Shown piece by piece: positions 467 through 18,861 of a stretch of 20,900 nucleotides of DNA. Origin of the DNA: a virus; IMG/VR virus record IMGVR_UViG_3300042878_000096, positions 1 to 20,900 of that record. One strand, written 5' to 3'. The notes beneath the pieces are model-generated. The model saw only the letters and a list, made by a program, of their open reading frames with translations. It was not told the DNA's origin and made no database searches. Both the position numbers and the translations under genes were made by a program. The stretch's first letter is position 1. Each line of letters opens with the position of its first letter.

Positions 467-917
467 TTACAGCCTCCATCACTTTGTTGTAACTGTCGAT
501 ACAGGCGTTGAGTTGGTTGATTGCTTTGTCTCCGTCTGCGATGATTTGAGCAATAAGTCTGAGAACCTCTGTGTCAGATTCGCTTCCCGCTTTTGTGCTA
601 TCTCCGCTGGAAGGGGTGGGACTTGAACTGGTTTGTACGCAACTTGTGGACGGGAGGCGCACCCTACCAGCACGAATAGCACGATCAAGACTAGACTGTT
701 TTTCAGTAATGGCATTATTGGCCTCCTGTAACTTGGTTGAGTTTTCATTAAGTTGTTTGGTGAGTTCTTGCTCTTTTACACGGGCTTCCTCGTTCTTGAC
801 AGCAATCTCTGCTTGCATCTCAATATCACGATCATCCCATCCCTTATGGTGTCCATAGAAATACACGCTTACAGCCACCAAAATAGCACCCAATATCATC
901 CAAGGATTAGGAATCAT
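453..917 (-). CDS. Inner-membrane spanin (Rz-like)
   Basis: 154-residue i-spanin that would work with the o-spanin nested inside it to fuse inner and outer membranes at the end of lysis. The sequence shows a single N-terminal membrane segment (about residues 6-22, WMILGAILVAVSVYFYG), then a long charged, Gln/Glu/Lys-rich helical stretch (about 30-90) expected to be a periplasmic coiled coil, then a Ser/Thr/Pro-rich linker and a final helical part with a Cys. The start ATG overlaps the stop of the upstream holin-like gene as ATGA (914-917), so translation is probably coupled. Size and topology match Rz proteins of phages of Gram-negative hosts; the pair is assigned mainly by architecture and by the embedded lipoprotein frame. 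Confidence 0.85.
   Translation of the reverse strand: MIPNPWMILGAILVAVSVYFYGHHKGWDDRDIEMQAEIAVKNEEARVKEQELTKQLNENSTKLQEANNAITEKQSSLDRAIRAGRVRLPSTSCVQTSSSPTPSSGDSTKAGSESDTEVLRLIAQIIADGDKAINQLNACIDSYNKVMEAVNGKR
479..715 (-). CDS. Outer-membrane spanin lipoprotein (Rz1-like), nested in Rz
   Basis: 78-residue lipoprotein read in a different frame entirely inside the Rz-like gene. An N-terminal hydrophobic segment ends in a good lipobox, LVGC with Cys19 as the lipidation site, followed by a short Pro-rich part (KPVQVPPLPAEIAQ) typical of Rz1. The start was chosen at the ATG at 715 because a near-perfect Shine-Dalgarno AGGAGG (722-727) sits six bases upstream. An in-frame ATG at 748 would put charged residues before the signal peptide and lacks such a site. 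The mature protein should be anchored in the outer membrane and bind the i-spanin C-terminus across the periplasm. A fully nested Rz1 is well known (lambda). Confidence 0.85.
   Translation of the reverse strand: MPLLKNSLVLIVLFVLVGCASRPQVAYKPVQVPPLPAEIAQKREANLTQRFSDLLLKSSQTETKQSTNSTPVSTVTTK
722..727 (-). promoter_or_regulatory. Strong ribosome binding site of the nested o-spanin
   Basis: AGGAGG on the minus strand, six bases before the ATG at 715 and lying within the Rz-like coding sequence. It decides the start of the o-spanin over the upstream in-frame ATG at 748 and is strong evidence that the nested frame is a real gene. Confidence 0.75.
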
Positions 918-1420
918 TGATCAGCCCTCGCTAATGCCCTCTCATTGGCTATTTTCTCCTTCTCAGGGTCAATATAGTCAGGTGGAGTAGTAGGCGGTGG
1001 TGGTGCTCTCCATTCCTCATCCAAAGGAGGGTTCACCCATGCTGGCATAGCACCAGATGACACCCAAGTAGAGGTAGATGGTGGTGGAGGCGTTGTAGGG
1101 GTGCTAGGAGGCGTTACAGGGGGCGTTGTAGGCGTTGCCATCTTCTCAGCCAATGTCTGCACACCTTTACGGCTCATAACGCCACCGATGCCACCAACAA
1201 TGAGCAAAACAATGTCGTTGAGCATCTTGAGATAACCCTGATCAATCGGAGCCATGCTCTTAATGGGTTGCGTCACAAAGGTAACGCTATACAGCATAAA
1301 GAACACAATGCCAGCCAAGATAACAGTCACGATAAGGACTACTAAAGCCCAAACCCTAACCTCTATCTCATCTTGCGTCAGAAGCCGATTGACTTGGAAT
1401 TTGTGGGGGTTGTTGGACAA
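914..1420 (-). CDS. Holin-like membrane protein with Pro-rich tail
   Basis: 168 residues. One clear membrane segment (about 23-44, VWALVVLIVTVILAGIVFFM), a second shorter hydrophobic stretch (about 68-82, NDIVLLIVGGIGGVM), then a low-complexity Pro/Thr-rich region (about 97-150) and a charged C-terminus. Position directly before the spanins and the GH19 endolysin, and the two-segment topology, suggest a holin, but I cannot name a holin family. The start is TTG at 1420, chosen because GGAG lies seven bases upstream and no ATG occurs before the first membrane segment. A weak start codon would suit a lysis-timing protein (inference). The 5' end overlaps the preceding lipoprotein gene by 53 nt; the 3' end overlaps the i-spanin start as ATGA. 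Confidence 0.65.
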   Translation of the reverse strand: MSNNPHKFQVNRLLTQDEIEVRVWALVVLIVTVILAGIVFFMLYSVTFVTQPIKSMAPIDQGYLKMLNDIVLLIVGGIGGVMSRKGVQTLAEKMATPTTPPVTPPSTPTTPPPPSTSTWVSSGAMPAWVNPPLDEEWRAPPPPTTPPDYIDPEKEKIANERALARADQ

Positions 1421-1598
1421 CTTGTTTCTCCAATATAGGTGCTACTAGGTAATCAGGACAGTCTTGGGTGAATTGGCAGTCAGGGCGTTGGCACTTTTTT
1501 AATGAAAAGTTTTTTGGATTTTGACATTCATATCTCCACCTGTCTTCGCACCCATAAAGCAAGAAAATAGCAATTAAAATTATGTATTTAGTCTTCAT
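1368..1598 (-). CDS. Small Cys-rich lipoprotein (apparent 3' part of a gene split by HNH)
   Basis: 76 residues: basic N-terminus, hydrophobic segment and a lipobox-like LLYGC with Cys17. The Tyr before Gly is unusual for a lipobox. The mature part has four further Cys (25, 36, 41, 47) and begins EDRWRYECQNPKN, a pattern I associate with a conserved small lipoprotein of podovirus-like phages. Its ATG overlaps the HNH gene stop as ATGA (1595-1598). A 15-codon signal peptide with a better lipobox lies on the other side of the HNH gene at 2142-2189, suggesting that the endonuclease interrupted the original gene and this copy regained a start and signal sequence. Role unknown; a place in the cell envelope follows from the lipobox. 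Confidence 0.7.
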   Translation of the reverse strand: MKTKYIILIAIFLLYGCEDRWRYECQNPKNFSLKKCQRPDCQFTQDCPDYLVAPILEKQVVQQPPQIPSQSASDAR

Positions 1599-2098
1599 GT
1601 TGTGTGGTGAGTGAAGTATTTATCTTCTGCCTTTTTTCTTGCTTCTACGGCTTCGTCAACTGTTGCAAAATATCCAATATGGATTGTTTTTCTATTGTGC
1701 ATTATGTTCACAGAAAATGGTTTTGTTTTTAGATATTTTCTATGATAAACACCCCGATGACCAGAAGAATTAGTGCTTTTTAAAGACATATTTTCTGCAT
1801 TTTGTTTTGGACTTGCCAATCTTAAATTGGTTGCAATGTTGTTTGTCCTGTCTCTATCTATGTGGTCAATATTTATTATGGGAAATGCACCATAAACATA
1901 AAGCCACATTAGGCGATGCGCCAAATAATCATGTTGATCCACTCGAATAGCAACATAACCATTTACAGTTAAAGCCCCTGCTTCTTGGCCTTTCTTTGCT
2001 TTTCCGCCCATTGTGTGCTTCCAAACAAAGATTCCTTTTTCCGTATCTACATCTAACAATTCGCAAAGTCTGTCTCGTGTAAGTTGGCTAGTTTCCAT
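1595..2098 (-). CDS. HNH homing endonuclease with C-terminal AP2 domain
   Basis: 167-residue free-standing HNH endonuclease. Residues about 43-65 (ALTVNGYVAIRVDQHDYLAH then RLMW) and INIDHIDRDRTNNIATNLR (75-93) followed by QNAEN are the signature of the HNH_3 type, with Asp78-His79 and Asn91 as key residues. Residues about 111-160 (SSGHRGVYHRK ... HIGYFATVDEAVEAR) form an AP2-like DNA-binding domain, a usual partner in phage homing enzymes. The start was set at the ATG at 2098 because GGAG lies five bases upstream; the longer frame from TTG at 2158 adds residues unrelated to the family. Positions 1621-1800 are only about 32% G+C by my count, lower than the structural genes, which fits recent transfer. 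The last codon overlaps the downstream lipoprotein as ATGA. Confidence 0.92.
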   Translation of the reverse strand: METSQLTRDRLCELLDVDTEKGIFVWKHTMGGKAKKGQEAGALTVNGYVAIRVDQHDYLAHRLMWLYVYGAFPIINIDHIDRDRTNNIATNLRLASPKQNAENMSLKSTNSSGHRGVYHRKYLKTKPFSVNIMHNRKTIHIGYFATVDEAVEARKKAEDKYFTHHTT

Positions 2099-2141
2099 AA
2101 ATACTCCATATAATGATGTGTGAAGTATAACTGACAACATA

Positions 2142-2189
2142 CTATTCTTCGCAACCAACTAAAAGCATAAGCACCAATAAATACTTCAT
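2142..2189 (-). pseudogene. 15-codon lipoprotein signal-peptide remnant upstream of HNH
   Basis: ATG at 2189 overlaps the stop of the upstream 58-residue gene as ATGA and encodes MKYLLVLMLLVGCEE then TAG. This is a complete lipoprotein signal peptide with a good lipobox (LVGC) and two acidic residues, then an immediate stop. The downstream lipoprotein at 1368-1598 reaches the equivalent point with YGCED and continues. A 12-base block (2146-2157) matches 1543-1554 with one mismatch. I interpret this as the 5' stump of the lipoprotein gene cut by insertion of the HNH gene. It could instead be a functional micro-lipopeptide or a leader peptide. Confidence 0.55.
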
Positions 2190-2362
2190 TTAGATTCTTT
2201 CAGTTCTTGTTTCAACTTGCGTAACTCTTTCATCTCTCGTTTTAGTTGTGCTTTCATGTAAAGAGTCTCCACATAAGCCATTGAGGTTGCACCTACGACA
2301 ACGCATAGCATCACTCCGATTAAAACCCACCAGATAAGTTTTGCAGTTGCCACATTAGCCAT
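2186..2362 (-). CDS. Small membrane protein with charged coiled-coil tail
   Basis: 58 residues. N-terminal membrane segment (about 7-27, AKLIWWVLIGVMLCVVVGAT) followed by a strongly charged helix rich in Lys, Glu and Leu (about 36-58) of coiled-coil character. The frame overlaps the 3' end of the preceding coiled-coil membrane protein by 43 nt and ends in an ATGA overlap with the lipoprotein remnant. No strong ribosome site precedes the ATG at 2362; ATG at 2309 is preceded too closely by GGAG and would cut into the membrane segment. The position at the start of the lysis region suggests a holin/antiholin or accessory lysis protein, but no family is recognised. Confidence 0.6.
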   Translation of the reverse strand: MANVATAKLIWWVLIGVMLCVVVGATSMAYVETLYMKAQLKREMKELRKLKQELKESK

Positions 2363-3053: not shown

Positions 3054-4770
3054 ACGGCCTATTGGGAGCCATATTGTTGAGTTCAATGCGAGGAAGTCGA
3101 TCTTCTTTGTTGTATTGAAATACTGTGCTTGGGGCAAGTACGCCACCAGATTGAGGCGATGTTTGTGATAACAAACCACCAGCCCGTTTTATCAACTCAG
3201 GTCGTGAACGCAATAAAGCATCTATTGCGGCTTGCCCACCAGGACTATAGACTGTTGGCACACCAGTAATTAATCCAGCCGCAATCATTGGTTCTGTAAA
3301 CATTCCATAACCACCAGCCACCCTAGTAGCAATATTTCCTTCTAGCGTTGCTTGTGATTGATTTCCAAGCACCTGAATACCAGCATCAGAAATCTCTTGG
3401 CTTTTTGCTGTACCTTTAGCAAATGCTGATTTATTTCTTGTCTTGTCTGCTTGTCTTACAGCAGTTGAAAACTGTTTTGGTGTAAATACGCCACTATCTG
3501 CCCCAGAATTAGCGGCGGCAATATTGATTACAGACAAATCACTATAAGCACTATCAACTCTACGCAACTGTGGCGTTTGTTTTGGGTTTTGGAAGTACAA
3601 CTCTTTTTTCAAAACACCTAAAACATCACTCAATGCCTGACCAACTTCTCTTTCAGAAGCATTTGAACTATTTATGTAGTTGCTGGCTTTTTTACGCAAG
3701 TCTGACTCAATACCCTTGAATGTTTTACCATCCAATTTTTGACCAGAAAATTTACCTAATACTATATTATTGAGTGTTTGGGCAACTTCTTGTCTTTGGT
3801 TTGCTGATAAATTTGTGTTTTTGCTTAAAGACGAAAGAATATTGCTTGTAGTTGCAAAATCCAAGTCAAATGACATTTTTGCCAACACTTCATCATACTT
3901 TTTAGACACTTCATTTGAAGCGTACATGATTGCATCTCTGCCAACTACATCAGCGGGAAGTTGCAATTTATCTGCTTTTGTTGGATCACTTGCTTTGCCC
4001 AATGCCTTGTTAATAATGCCTTTATTAAAGTCAAACAAAACACGCTGTCGTGCGTTGGTAATACTGTCTCCTATGAGAGGTAGATTTTGTGCAAATTCTT
4101 CAAATGTATTAAATTTGCCACCCAATGTTTGACCTGTGGTTGGCATAATTCCAAGATCACGCATAGTTTGTTCTGCTTTAGAAACAAGCGGATTTAATGC
4201 TCTACCAACACCAGAAATAACTTTTTCTCCAATAGGAGCCGTTACCCCACTAACAATAACTTGTTCGGCTTTTTGACTACCAAAGTCACCCTCTCCTGTA
4301 ACTGGTTGCATTGCTCCACCAGCAACTCCACTACCAACTGCTTGCGTAGTTCTACCATAACCAGCCGCACGGGTTAATTGAGCCGCCCTTGTGGCAGGAA
4401 CAATAGAAGCAGGGTTAATTATGTTTCCCGCTAATCTAGATACATCAAACCCTGTTTGACCTTGAGCCTGACGCTGTTGTTGGTATGCCTGTTCTTCAGA
4501 ACGAGCAAGTTCATCCATGCGCTGTGCTTCGCCTGTAAAGAATTCACTAACAGGGTTTTTGTATGCTCCAAATCCTGAAGTTACACTAGCCAAAGCCCGT
4601 GGCAAAAGTTGTGCGCCACCTGTGATAGGGTCTTTTAACCCCATCATAAATCCTGAAGATGGGGGTGTAACTTGCGCTTGTGGAGCAAGCAGTTTTTCTA
4701 TTTGTTCGTCAGTAGTTCCTTCTGGAAACTCAATAACGTCATTGCCTACTTGTACATATATTGATGCCAT
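3052..4770 (-). CDS. Putative DNA ejection / internal virion protein (third of three)
   Basis: 572 residues. The N-terminus IEFPEGTTDEQIEKLLAP is a short acidic helix motif seen at the start of many phage structural proteins. Residues about 40-190 are Gly/Ala-rich and helical with hydrophobic stretches (ASVTSGFG, VGSGVAGGAM), and the rest is alternating helical and Asn/Gln/Ser-rich sequence. Size and position as the last of three consecutive Gln/Ala-rich proteins after the tail hub parallel P22 gp7-gp20-gp16 and T7 gp14-gp15-gp16, which leave the virion and build a conduit for DNA. That is inference from order and composition; I see no lytic transglycosylase motif. The ATG at 4770 has GGAG seven bases upstream and starts just before the end of the preceding gene's stop. 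Confidence 0.6.
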   Translation of the reverse strand: MASIYVQVGNDVIEFPEGTTDEQIEKLLAPQAQVTPPSSGFMMGLKDPITGGAQLLPRALASVTSGFGAYKNPVSEFFTGEAQRMDELARSEEQAYQQQRQAQGQTGFDVSRLAGNIINPASIVPATRAAQLTRAAGYGRTTQAVGSGVAGGAMQPVTGEGDFGSQKAEQVIVSGVTAPIGEKVISGVGRALNPLVSKAEQTMRDLGIMPTTGQTLGGKFNTFEEFAQNLPLIGDSITNARQRVLFDFNKGIINKALGKASDPTKADKLQLPADVVGRDAIMYASNEVSKKYDEVLAKMSFDLDFATTSNILSSLSKNTNLSANQRQEVAQTLNNIVLGKFSGQKLDGKTFKGIESDLRKKASNYINSSNASEREVGQALSDVLGVLKKELYFQNPKQTPQLRRVDSAYSDLSVINIAAANSGADSGVFTPKQFSTAVRQADKTRNKSAFAKGTAKSQEISDAGIQVLGNQSQATLEGNIATRVAGGYGMFTEPMIAAGLITGVPTVYSPGGQAAIDALLRSRPELIKRAGGLLSQTSPQSGGVLAPSTVFQYNKEDRLPRIELNNMAPNRP

Positions 4771-4771
4771 T

Positions 4772-6124
4772 TTATTCTCCAGTCACCGATTCTATTTTTC
4801 CAGTTGCAGGATTTAATCTTTTGGTTACTCGTGGCGCAGATGGTGCTGGTTGCATTGGTTGTAAAGGCAAATCACCACCAGTTTTTCCAGTTTGTACTTG
4901 TTTTTGCAAACGAGCAATATTGTTGTTAGTTTTTCTTTCTGCGCTTTCCAAAATACGTTTCATTGATTCTGGTTCTAGGCGTTGCTCTCCTGCAACAACT
5001 TTTTGCAAATACTTTAATTCTTCATTGGAATCATTGCCGCCAAATTGTTGCAATCTTGGAATAACAATTTCGCCAATGTTAGCGAGGAACACTTCTGTAT
5101 TTTGTACCTTCTTAGAATCTCCAATCATTCCACCAGAATACTTAGCAATAAATCCTTTTTCGGGGCCAAAAGCACCTGCATAAATGCCTTGTCCAACCAA
5201 CTTTGTAGCGTCTTGTATTGCGGTTTGTAAAGAATATTGCTCCTCAATGTTAGCAACCTTAGCACCAATATTTTTACCCGCTTCTTTTGATGCGGCTCCT
5301 GAATCAATTGTGATGCCACCAATAGTTACATTACCAGAACCTTTTTTTGCGCCTTCAAGTTTACTTTCAATAAACTGATTCATTCTGTTTTTAAATGTTT
5401 CTGTTTCTGGCATTATTCCAGCATCAATAAGAGTTTGAGCAAATGGTGAGATTTTATCTTTTGAATTATCTAAACGTTTTATTTGCGCTACTATGCTATC
5501 GTATTGAGGACTACCCTTATCTTGCCCCATTGCTTTCAAAGTTTGTAGTTGTGTTGTTAAAGACCCAATTTCTTGAGAAATTTGTATAGCGTCAGCAACC
5601 TTATCTGGTTTTGGAGTAATCAATGATGAAAGTTGGTTGCTAAGAAATGCAAGTGTGTTTGTTTTTTTATCCGAATCTGGCTCCGCTGTAACTTGGTTTA
5701 TTTGTTGCCTTAATGTTGCTGATGCCAAAGCATTGCGTTGTTCTGGAGTCATCTTTTCAGCAGTTCTTTGCTGAATCAAAGCATAGTCACTTTGTGCTTT
5801 ACGCAAATAGTTTGATAACTCTAACGCACCAGGCTGATCTCCTTCGGATGCCAACCTTTGTATTCCCCTTTGTATTGATTCAGGATCATTTGGGTCAACT
5901 TGTTGCATTACAGCATTTCGTGCGCTGATGATGCGTAACTGTGGGTCTTCAGCACCCAATGCACCCGCCAACCGTCTACCACCATAGATAAGGCTAGTAC
6001 GAGCAGACGCAAAAGGATCCATTTGTCCTAGTTCTGCCGACTGTGCTAATGCCTGTCTGTTTTGTTGTGCTTGGTATCCTTCAGGGGTTATACCAAATAA
6101 ACCACCCATAATTGATTCTGCCAT
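4772..6124 (-). CDS. Putative DNA ejection / internal virion protein (second of three)
   Basis: 450 residues, almost entirely predicted helix, rich in Gln, Ala, Leu and charged residues with no membrane segment or enzyme motif. The N-terminal GGLFGITPEGYQAQQNRQA and several long amphipathic stretches fit an internal virion protein. The start was set at the ATG at 6124 because a strong site AAGGAG lies eight bases upstream; the longer frame from 6148 would place that site inside the gene. Only two bases separate its stop from the next start codon. Its length is close to P22 gp20 (471 residues), and the context is a trio of ejection-type proteins. No catalytic function is claimed. Confidence 0.6.
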   Translation of the reverse strand: MAESIMGGLFGITPEGYQAQQNRQALAQSAELGQMDPFASARTSLIYGGRRLAGALGAEDPQLRIISARNAVMQQVDPNDPESIQRGIQRLASEGDQPGALELSNYLRKAQSDYALIQQRTAEKMTPEQRNALASATLRQQINQVTAEPDSDKKTNTLAFLSNQLSSLITPKPDKVADAIQISQEIGSLTTQLQTLKAMGQDKGSPQYDSIVAQIKRLDNSKDKISPFAQTLIDAGIMPETETFKNRMNQFIESKLEGAKKGSGNVTIGGITIDSGAASKEAGKNIGAKVANIEEQYSLQTAIQDATKLVGQGIYAGAFGPEKGFIAKYSGGMIGDSKKVQNTEVFLANIGEIVIPRLQQFGGNDSNEELKYLQKVVAGEQRLEPESMKRILESAERKTNNNIARLQKQVQTGKTGGDLPLQPMQPAPSAPRVTKRLNPATGKIESVTGE

Positions 6125-15664: not shown

Positions 15665-16690
15665 TCAGGGACTAAATGCAACACCAAAACCAGAATTTGT
15701 TGGTAAGGTGGCTGGATTAGAGTATTTAGTACCAAAACCAGCAGACCAAGGATACACAGATATAAAAGGAGATACATTGTGACTAACCGCTATGTCTGTG
15801 CCTGATGGACTAAATGCTACATTTCGACCATTACCTGTTGGTACGGTGGCTGGATTAGCGTACTTAGTACCAAAACCAGAACTCCACGGGTAAACCGAAA
15901 TATTAGGCGTTGTAAAGTGAGAAACCGCTAAATCTGCTCCACTAGGACTAAATGCCACTTTTAAACCAGGCCCTGCTGGCAAGGTGGCTGGATTAGCGTA
16001 CTTAGTACCAAAACCAGAAGACCAAGGATACACAAGTATATAAGGTGAAGAACTGGAAGCAACCGCTATATCTGATCCACTAGGACTAAATGCAACACCA
16101 TTAACATTACCTGTTGGTAAAGTGGAAGGGTCAGCATACTTGGCTCCAAAACCAGAACTCCACGGATAAGCCGATATAAAAGGGGAAGTAGAGTGTGCAA
16201 GTGCTATATGTGCCCCACTAGGACTAAATGCAACACCATTACCAATACCTGTTGGTAAGGTGGAAGGGTCAGCATACTTAGTACCAAAACCAGAACTCCA
16301 CGGATACACAGATATAAAAGGAGAGGTAGCATGAGCAACTGCTAAATCTGCTCCACTAGGACTAAATACAACACTTATACCAGTACTTGCTGGTAAGGTG
16401 GCTGGATTAGCGTACTTGGTTCCAAAACCAGAACTCCAAGGATACACAGATATAAAAGGGGAAGTAGAGTGTGCAACCGCTATGTCTGCTTTACTAGGGC
16501 TAAAGGCAACGCCTTGACCAGTACCTGCTGGCAATGTAGCAGGATTAGCGTACTTGGTTCCAAAACCAGCAGACCAAGGGTAAACCGATATAAAAGGAGA
16601 GGTCTGATGAGCAATCGCTAAGTCTGGGGCTGATGCTGGCGAACCAAAAGACCGATGATTCATGTACACCGCTTGCTGTGAACCACTCAT
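15665..16690 (-). CDS. Seven-bladed beta-propeller adhesion-type protein (46-residue WD40-like repeats)
   Basis: 341 residues. After 30 residues it consists of six full 46-residue repeats and a 35-residue seventh. The consensus is [24 protein letters not shown], a variable six-residue loop, then [16 protein letters not shown]. The missing 11 residues of repeat 7 are matched by residues 20-30 ([11 protein letters not shown]), as in circular velcro closure of a propeller. Repeats of the AFSP-G-x-LAVAH type are known in WD40-like phage and bacterial proteins. No signal peptide. It follows the collagen-like fibre with an ATGA overlap (16687-16690) and precedes the fibre chaperone, so a receptor-binding or head/tail appendage role is likely but inferred. 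Binding partner unknown. Confidence 0.8.
15668..16600 (-). repeat. Seven tandem 138-bp coding repeats (last one partial)
   Basis: Units begin at 16600, 16462, 16324, 16186, 16048, 15910 and 15772 (read downward); the last is 105 bp. Long stretches are nearly identical in DNA (for example CTTGGTTCCAAAACCAG-like blocks), with change concentrated in the loop after ATLP and before SPFI. Such repeats can gain or lose units by recombination and may cause assembly errors. Confidence 0.85.
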
Positions 16691-18861
16691 GTCAAACCAC
16701 TCCCAGAAATAAGCCAGTTGGTTGAGGTTATTTTCAATGCTGTTGCAGAACCATATTGCGCCAAACTTCTTGACCCAGTTGTGCCAGCAGGACTCAAATT
16801 CATAGTGTCTGTTGTGATAGCGATAGTTACCACCTGAGAAGTCATATTGATAAATGTAACTACTGTGCCGATTGGATAAGCCACGCTTGCATTTGATGGA
16901 ATGGTAAATGTCCTAGCATTGGCATCACTTGATGGATGTAATATAGTTTTTCCAGAATCTGCAAGCACTAATGTGTAGGCGGCAGACTGTGAGTTGACAG
17001 GCACATTTCTAAACCCAACGGCATCTGTGCCATCAACTGTGCAATTACTTAACGTGCCAGAAGTAGGTGTACCTAAAACTGGTGTTGTTAATGATGGGCT
17101 AGTAGAAAGAACAACATTGCCACTACCAGTAGAAGTTGTAACTCCAGTTCCACCATTCACAACAGGCAACGCAGTACCAGACAATGTAATTGCCAATGTT
17201 CCACTTGTTGTAATTGGTGAACCAGTTACAGACAAGAATGATGGGACAGTTGCCGCAACGCTTGTTACTGTGCCAGAGCCACCGCTAGGAGCCGCCCACG
17301 AACCATCACCACGCCAAAAAGTAGATGCTGATGCTGATGTACCGCCATTAAGGTTAGTTACAGGCAAATTACCAGTTACTTGTGTTGCTAGGTCAACATT
17401 TGATAATGTGCCACCAAGGGTCAAATTACCACTTGTTGTGACTGTGCCTGTTAATGTGATGCCGTTTACTGTTCCTGTGCCACCAACGCTTGTAACTGTT
17501 CCGCTACCTTTGTTGTTAAATGTTGTCCAATCAGCAGAACTTAATGCGCCACGATTAGTTGCAGATGCGGTAGGTACATTTAAAGTGATTACTGGAGTTG
17601 TAGTTCCATTAGCCACAGTAGAACCTAAATCAGTCCCTGTTGTGCCTAATGTAAGTGCCGCAACGCTTGTTACTGTGCCAGTTGTCGAATCATTGGAAGT
17701 AATCGTAAAGTTAGGATATGTTCCCGTAATACTAGTCGTACCCGCACCTGTTAAAGAAACAGTCTGATCTGGTGCAGAGTTGGTAATTGTAAAGTTAGGA
17801 TACGTGCCACTTGTGCTAATTCCTGTTCCCGCAGTTAAGGCAACTGTTTGGTCAGGTGCGCTATTGGTGATTGTGAAGTTAGGATAGGTTCCTGATGTAC
17901 TAATGCCCGTACTTGCAGTCAATACTACCGTCTGATCTGGTGCAGTATTAGTAATATTTAACGTACCAGATGTAGTAATTGGACTACCAGTAATACTGAT
18001 GCCTGTTCCAGCAGAAGCGGCAACACTTGTTACTGTGCCAGAACCGCCACTTGCGTTAATTGTTTGATTAGGCCAAGTGCCTGTGATACTAGTGATGTTT
18101 GTGCCTGCCACCAAGGAAGGCGTTGCTGTACCTGTTCCACCACTAGCAACCGCAAGAGTACCAGCCAAAGTGATAGTGCCAGTTGTAGTAATTGGGCTAC
18201 CAGTAACAGTCAATCCTGTTGTACCACCTGACAAACCAACGCTTGTTACAGTACCTGTTCCTGCGCTGACATTGACAGTTACATCGTCCCCAGAATTTGT
18301 AGCAGTAACAGTCGCACCAACAAAATTGATTTTCTTAACACCACTTGTGATGCTTGTGCCTTCGTCTAGGATAGCCACCGCCCCATTGGTAGACATGGTG
18401 CTAATGACTTTGATCTTTTCTGCTAAGTCAGGAGCAACTACTTCACCTACATTGATCTCTTGACCAGTAGACAAAGTGATAACCAACGAGCCATCAAAGT
18501 CAATCTTGGCATCCCTAACAGAAACACCATCTTTGCCGTCTATTCCGTCTTTTCCATCCCTACCATTTAACCCATTTTTACCATCTATGCCTTGGCGACC
18601 ATCTAAACCACGCTCACCCTTGTCTCCCTTGTCACCCTTTTCAGGAACAATAGACTTGGCAACCTCTAGTTGTGCGCTGACCTTGTTCTCCATTACCTTA
18701 ATGGCTTCAACAATCAACTCAACATTGTCATTTATGGCTTCTTCTTCTTGCTGGCGCATAGCCACAAGAGTCTCTTCCATCTTAGTGATGGCTTCTAACT
18801 TGTCATCAAAAGATGAATCAGTCGATTCAATGCTTTCAATCAGTTCTTTGATGTTAGCCAT
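16687..18861 (-). CDS. Collagen-like tail or head fibre protein
   Basis: 724 residues. Residues 1-70 form a charged coiled coil, 76-112 are 12 consecutive Gly-x-y triplets ([20 protein letters not shown] onwards), and 150-600 are Thr/Ser/Gly/Val-rich beta repeats with five GTVTSV units and three 28-residue APDQTV repeats. The C-terminus (about 615-724, [20 protein letters not shown] onwards) is a compact beta domain typical of fibre tips. This is a trimeric fibre by family knowledge. The ATG at 18861 overlaps the portal gene's stop by 8 nt, without a clear ribosome site. It lies directly after the portal gene rather than near the tail genes, which is unusual. Low-complexity composition leaves long open frames on the other strand that are not genes. 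Confidence 0.85.
17695..17946 (-). repeat. Three 84-bp tandem repeats in the fibre gene
   Basis: Residues 306-389 are three 28-residue copies of (S/T)APDQTV-x-LT-x3[15 protein letters not shown]; the third is diverged. In DNA the first two are close to identical. Part of the beta-repeat shaft. Confidence 0.8.
18526..18636 (-). repeat. Collagen-like Gly-x-y repeat of the fibre
   Basis: Residues 76-112 keep Gly at every third position for 12 triplets, many with Asp and Lys in the x and y positions, as in bacterial and phage collagen-like triple helices. Confidence 0.88.

Follow-up and report, generated by a model that had tools for sequence, protein, structure and literature searches.

A probable mobile HNH endonuclease cassette that splits a phage lipoprotein gene and carries a replacement signal peptide

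The usual view confines free-standing homing genes to intergenic sites, introns, inteins and tolerant split genes. Passages of PMC2988022 describe phage genes that are split by an endonuclease and whose halves reassemble, namely the MobE-split nrdA of Aeh1 and the MobA-split gene 60 of T4. Furthermore, mitochondrial mobile ORFs bring substitute C-termini, as in Allomyces atp6 and in Glomus atp6, atp9, cox2 and nad3 (passages of PMC3630166). Gene splitting and C-terminal replacement are thus already known. No case of 5′-end replacement in a phage was found in the open-access literature searched by titles, abstracts and passages, and we therefore count the replacement of a 5′ signal by a phage cassette as apparently new.

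Here we describe such a locus in a stretch of 20,900 nucleotides from a freshwater phage (positions 1 to 20,900 of IMG/VR record IMGVR_UViG_3300042878_000096), which we call the window. Very probably, a phage lipoprotein gene in it has been invaded by a mobile HNH cassette, which sits at the codons just past the lipobox cysteine. The genes lie on the minus strand in the order 218-aa protein, 58-aa membrane protein (2186..2362), 15-codon frame, HNH gene, 76-aa lipoprotein, 168-aa membrane protein and Rz-like gene. The 15-codon frame (MKYLLVLMLLVGCEE and a stop; 2142..2189), hereafter the stump, represents the original 5′ end of the lipoprotein gene, and its ATG overlaps the TGA of the upstream 58-aa gene (ATGA). 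The predicted HNH gene (1595..2098; METSQL...HHTT, 167 aa) encodes an AP2-like C-terminal domain, and its TGA is overlapped by the ATG of the complete post-insertion lipoprotein gene (MKTKYIILIAIFLLYGCEDRWRYECQNP..., 76 aa; 1368..1598). This gene joins a replacement signal peptide with lipobox (MKTKYIILIAIFLLYGC, 1548..1598) to a Cys-rich body (1368-1547) that belongs to the original lipoprotein gene. The gene for the 168-aa protein (914..1420) overlaps its 3′ end and is targeted by another HNH gene in relatives. Both ATGA overlaps, already reported in the first-pass annotation, were confirmed in the sequence. Only two annotated phage records, both metagenomic, matched the flanking genes, and these distantly.

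Further along the minus strand, an Rz-like spanin gene (453-917) contains a nested Rz1-like lipoprotein frame (479-748, LVGCASRP) and adjoins a gene with a glycoside hydrolase 19 domain (2-466). Two repetitive proteins are encoded side by side at 15665-18861 (minus strand); one has repeats of one kind, and the other has a collagen-like GDKGERG stretch and VTSV... repeats.

The first-pass annotation had proposed that the HNH gene split a lipoprotein gene, partly from two near-identical 12-mers. The left junction repeat (TGGTTGCGAAGA, 2146..2157, minus strand; junction fixed by the empty allele L014) and the right one (TGGGTGCGAAGA, 1543..1554, minus strand) lie at the two lipoboxes, and the 12-mers TCTTCGCAACCA and TCTTCGCACCCA at these positions are indeed one base apart (11/12). 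That the codons of two lipoboxes share a 12-mer is by itself weak evidence; what makes it decisive is the empty allele L014, together with the recurrence of the pattern among relatives. The AT-richness of the HNH region was observed as noted (32-39% GC) and is not distinctive, because positions 2101-2700 and 3600-5700 are AT-rich too.

About 160 loci were recovered when IMG/VR was scanned with the proteins encoded upstream and downstream, and in most of them the 58-aa gene is ATGA-coupled directly to an intact lipoprotein gene. Viral contig L014 reads MKYLLVLMLLVGCEDRWRYECQNP, in which the window's stump is joined to the window's body at TGCGAAGA. Its first 44 nucleotides equal the stump and its next codons equal the body, so that the window corresponds to L014 with an extra 603 bp, on either side of which stands a copy of TGCGAAGA. 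This net insertion covers 1543..2145 and can slide within the flanking repeat. The first 44 stump nucleotides are identical in the empty alleles L010, L011, L012, L014, L015 and L017, while the body sequence was found, among the IMG/VR loci compared at that stage, only in L014 and the window's own record. To the left, L014 and the window are 94.7% identical over 914 bp; the right flank is short, since the contig stops 28 nt past the shared GAAGA. The alignment of HNH-less relatives that had been proposed as a check thus revealed a single lipoprotein in which the MKYLLVLMLLVGCE signal leads straight on to the body, and in L014 the exact MKYLLVLMLLVGCEDRWRYECQNP was present. In these relatives the stump sequence continues into a lipoprotein body and not into another protein. 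All this supports the split-gene interpretation, as far as sequence comparison reaches, with the insertion placed just after the lipobox codons as had been suggested.

Further allele pairs showed the same arrangement. The occupied L168 (L252 is the same contig) and the empty L247 (MSKYLLILLLLVACEDRYRYTCQNP) are 97.1% identical over 931 bp on the left and 100% over 139 bp on the right, and the 8 bp between these flanks in L247 give way to 660 bp in L168. Likewise, L320 (the same contig as L184) and the empty L301 share 95.7% over 2526 bp on the left and 86% over 2128 bp on the right, and here 646 bp take the place of 7 bp. The pairs L322 vs L290 and L291 vs L307 are similar to the latter.

The family was gathered by scanning with the HNH protein and with its alignment. 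HNH proteins of this clade are 59-92% identical, and every member lies directly upstream of the same lipoprotein gene; HNH proteins of at least 59% identity are all at this site, and those at or below 45% sit elsewhere. Around this one fixed site, presence and absence are polymorphic (L014, L247 and L301 among the empty alleles), with 23 distinct occupied sequences, window included, against 122 empty ones, a tally that mirrors the locus search and not population frequency. A stump is kept in 16 occupied lineages and ends within a few residues of the lipobox cysteine (longer in L180), as in MKKLILLSLLMLVACEEL (L162), MKVLKILMLCLALTACEDC (L164), MSKYLLILLLLVACEDT (L168) and MSQNKFLWCVIVISIAVVLLLSGCEIV (L182), each followed by a stop. 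Stumps match neighbouring empty alleles, and those of L181-L190 are near-copies (92-99%) of signals in empty relatives; L284, the sole 100% match to the L184 stump, is a truncated occupied contig and was left out of the empty alleles. Six lineages are without a stump (L161, L170, L171, L173, L191 and L193). In L161 a TAAAAT leader directly adjoins the stop of the 58-aa gene; the HNH gene of L171 and L173 begins at the ATGA.

Next to the HNH gene, the lipoprotein signal itself appears to be mobile. Among 2.9 million contigs, a DNA pattern for the window's MKTKYI-type signal matched two contigs, both HNH-bearing, so that this signal was not seen in an HNH-less relative. A pattern for the MIKKLSF-type signal matched seven contigs, all of them known occupied ones. 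The window and L161 share 95% DNA identity over HNH codons 41 to the end plus the signal, a tract that ends at TGCGAAGACAG. Outside this tract, identity drops to 68% at the HNH start, 63% for the 218-aa protein, 77% for the 58-aa protein, 71% for the body, 70% for the 168-aa protein and 77% for Rz, which points to horizontal transfer of the tract relative to its flanks. The earlier suggestion that the cassette brought a replacement start and signal peptide is thereby upheld. L187 and L190 are alike in stump (0.88) and body (0.89) and less so in HNH (0.75), and their signals are unrelated (0.30). Across all lineages, partial Mantel tests did not cleanly separate HNH from body: signal similarity showed a partial r of 0.29 with each, and stump similarity also tracks HNH, so that vertical inheritance contributes. 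A tandem duplication of the native signal was discarded, as stump and replacement signal are dissimilar (0.08-0.38). On these sequence grounds we assign the replacement signal to the cassette.

The window's stump and its replacement signal both match the lipobox pattern PROSITE PS00013. It had been proposed that the tyrosine before the glycine impairs processing of the new lipobox. This is not supported, because tyrosine at −2 is permitted by PS00013 and LYAC is present in the intact alleles L016, L026, L094 and L118.

The HNH identity of the inserted gene was established by matches to Pfam HNH_3 (E=3.9e-13) and PHROG 99 (E=2.6e-57). The AP2 domain in the first-pass annotation was recovered only in structure: the window protein has no Pfam AP2 match and a relative has a weak one (0.0043), but the C-terminal domain of the AlphaFold model (pLDDT 83) matches AP2 domains, with 1gcc at 1.5 A rmsd (Foldseek probability 1.00, E=0.13). 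The best structural match of the model is I-HmuI (PDB 1U3E). Residues D78, H79 and N100 are invariant in a 10-sequence alignment and spaced as given for D74, H75 and N96 of I-HmuI, as would be predicted for a nuclease domain with conserved catalytic-type residues. The gene is probably a selfish DNA-cutting gene.

The leader of the HNH gene (2099..2141, minus strand) holds a possible −10 element TATACT, a weak −35 element and the Shine-Dalgarno sequence GGAG, all consensus matches only. A promoter scan of the window gave no excess over shuffles, and the leader promoter is therefore only suggestive. In L163 and L164, TTGACT-17-TAAAAT/TAAGAT lies right at the junction, likewise with no excess over shuffles. 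The Shine-Dalgarno GGAGTA of the window leader has a possible, if weak, pairing partner upstream in TACTTC (z −0.15). The sequence ATACTTCAC in the window, or TTCACACATC in L165, recurs at the HNH 3′ end, and 3-4 of 500 shuffles were as long. A conserved hairpin preceded by TAAAAT was observed in the leaders of L161, L164, L168 and L180-L190 (e.g. L181:3928-4000), with compensatory changes such as AAATGCCA/TGGCATTT and AAACACCG/CGGTGTTT. Next come CTAACC and a small hairpin whose loop contains the Shine-Dalgarno AAGGAG. The leaders of L161, L164 and L168 had no Rfam match at the gathering score.

The cassette consists of a stop codon with leader, the HNH gene, and a new start and lipoprotein signal coupled to the HNH stop and in frame with the resident body. 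We propose that in genomes lacking the HNH gene, where the lipobox-body junction is intact, the enzyme recognises this junction and cuts or nicks it. Repair from an HNH-bearing phage would then copy in the HNH gene and signal, with left and right crossovers in flanking homology. The insertion would split the recognition site, and the carried signal would keep full-length lipoprotein in production via ATGA coupling.

HNH enzymes of the I-HmuI type often reside in introns; PMC3428280 gives an example. The insert could accordingly be a self-splicing intron or a similar element whose flanking gene pieces are rejoined after transcription. We regard this as highly improbable, as all 22 cassette lineages examined have a downstream lipoprotein gene with a start of its own and a full signal, features that would be needless under splicing, and neither the window nor five relatives had an Rfam intron match. 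A group I intron-borne endonuclease was likewise rejected, with no intron RNA core detected by Rfam in these six sequences. The allele pairs raise a different question, since a pair alone does not tell insertion from later precise loss, and the 12-bp repeat would favour loss. If the HNH-bearing form were ancestral, the empty alleles would have arisen by precise deletion between the junction repeats, and the cassette-like CFEE junction (CFEEKYRY) behind the native signal of the empty alleles L279, L307 and L318 might be a scar of such loss. However, the truncated signal derives from an intact gene that existed beforehand, the empty alleles in our search-dependent tally are far more numerous (122 vs 23) and spread across divergent lineages, and the mosaic of the window and L161 shows horizontal movement. 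An ancestral cassette is therefore unlikely, if less so than splicing.

Insertion of the cassette leaves the role of the stump to be considered. Its frame and lipobox are intact in L181-L190, where pN/pS is 0.22 for stumps and, in 39 sequences that still include L284, a similar 0.31 for native signals, and all 16 stumps (16/16) fit the lipobox pattern. The stump frames thus look functional, judging from their coding sequence, through either recent capture or selection on the stump. The stump may be not merely debris but a functional mini-lipopeptide gene or translational coupler selected next to the HNH gene. We consider this rather doubtful, because recent repeated capture explains the same ratio, given the 92-99% match of stumps to neighbouring empty-allele signals, and six lineages lost the stump. 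The inserted HNH cassette, with empty and occupied alleles in matching flanks, a stump from the resident signal and a new signal co-inherited with HNH, remains our preferred reading.

A different HNH gene (32% identical) was found in L126 at the neighbouring 168-aa gene, where it takes the original start and first codons (MSNNHHKFQVNRLLT) and the 168-aa gene now starts with MKLENHPVHDQ. The flanks of L126 are 91.2% and 89.5% identical to those of L095, where the arrangement is native, and 576 bp take the place of 22 bp. The MKLENHP start is also present without HNH in L079 and L059, and we infer that these starts are scars of a lost cassette whose substitute start stayed. The 168-aa gene occurs with several unrelated N-termini (L126:2407-3506, L152:66-1093, L079, L059, L007, L028 and L055). 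Scanning genome contigs with the 168-aa protein gave only two hits, both in betaproteobacterial MAGs (L332 and L333; one Burkholderiales), a hint to the host, for which freshwater Betaproteobacteria would be a guess; no cultured phage of this family was found. As two unrelated HNH lineages hit adjacent genes, HNH cassettes might recurrently invade 5′ ends and bring N-termini that outlast the endonuclease, so that selfish genes drive signal and N-terminus swapping in an apparent lysis-region cluster; we see the chances of this broader reading as evenly balanced.

A cassette that supplies the interrupted gene with a working front end would represent a further low-cost route into coding sequence, and such cassettes could be part of the reason why one conserved lipoprotein body carries varied signals. 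With occupied and empty alleles in matching flanks, target site and repair outcome are directly testable.

The lactococcal Skunavirus HNH genes resemble this family in having a fixed insertion site per HNH clade (passages of PMC12724721). The window's enzyme shares the HNH motif, the D-H...N spacing and its best structural match with the I-HmuI-like endonucleases (PHROG 99; PDB 1U3E), but its cassette lacks an intron, has an AP2-like C-terminal domain and carries a replacement 5′ gene end. As in the MobE/nrdA case of Aeh1 and the MobA/gene 60 case of T4, the coding sequence of a phage gene is split by a free-standing HNH gene within it. In those two cases both halves reassemble and are required, whereas the downstream part in the window appears complete, with its own start, signal and lipobox, and the 5′ piece redundant. 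The fungal mitochondrial ORFs (passages of PMC3630166) likewise combine an endonuclease ORF with a substitute host-gene end and leave the native end as a relic, just as the signal here travels with HNH and the stump is the native 5′ end. However, the end they replace, in mitochondria, is the C-terminal (3′) one, and their enzymes in Glomus are of the LAGLIDADG or GIY-YIG type, whereas the window's cassette replaces an N-terminal signal at the 5′ end, in a phage and with an HNH enzyme.
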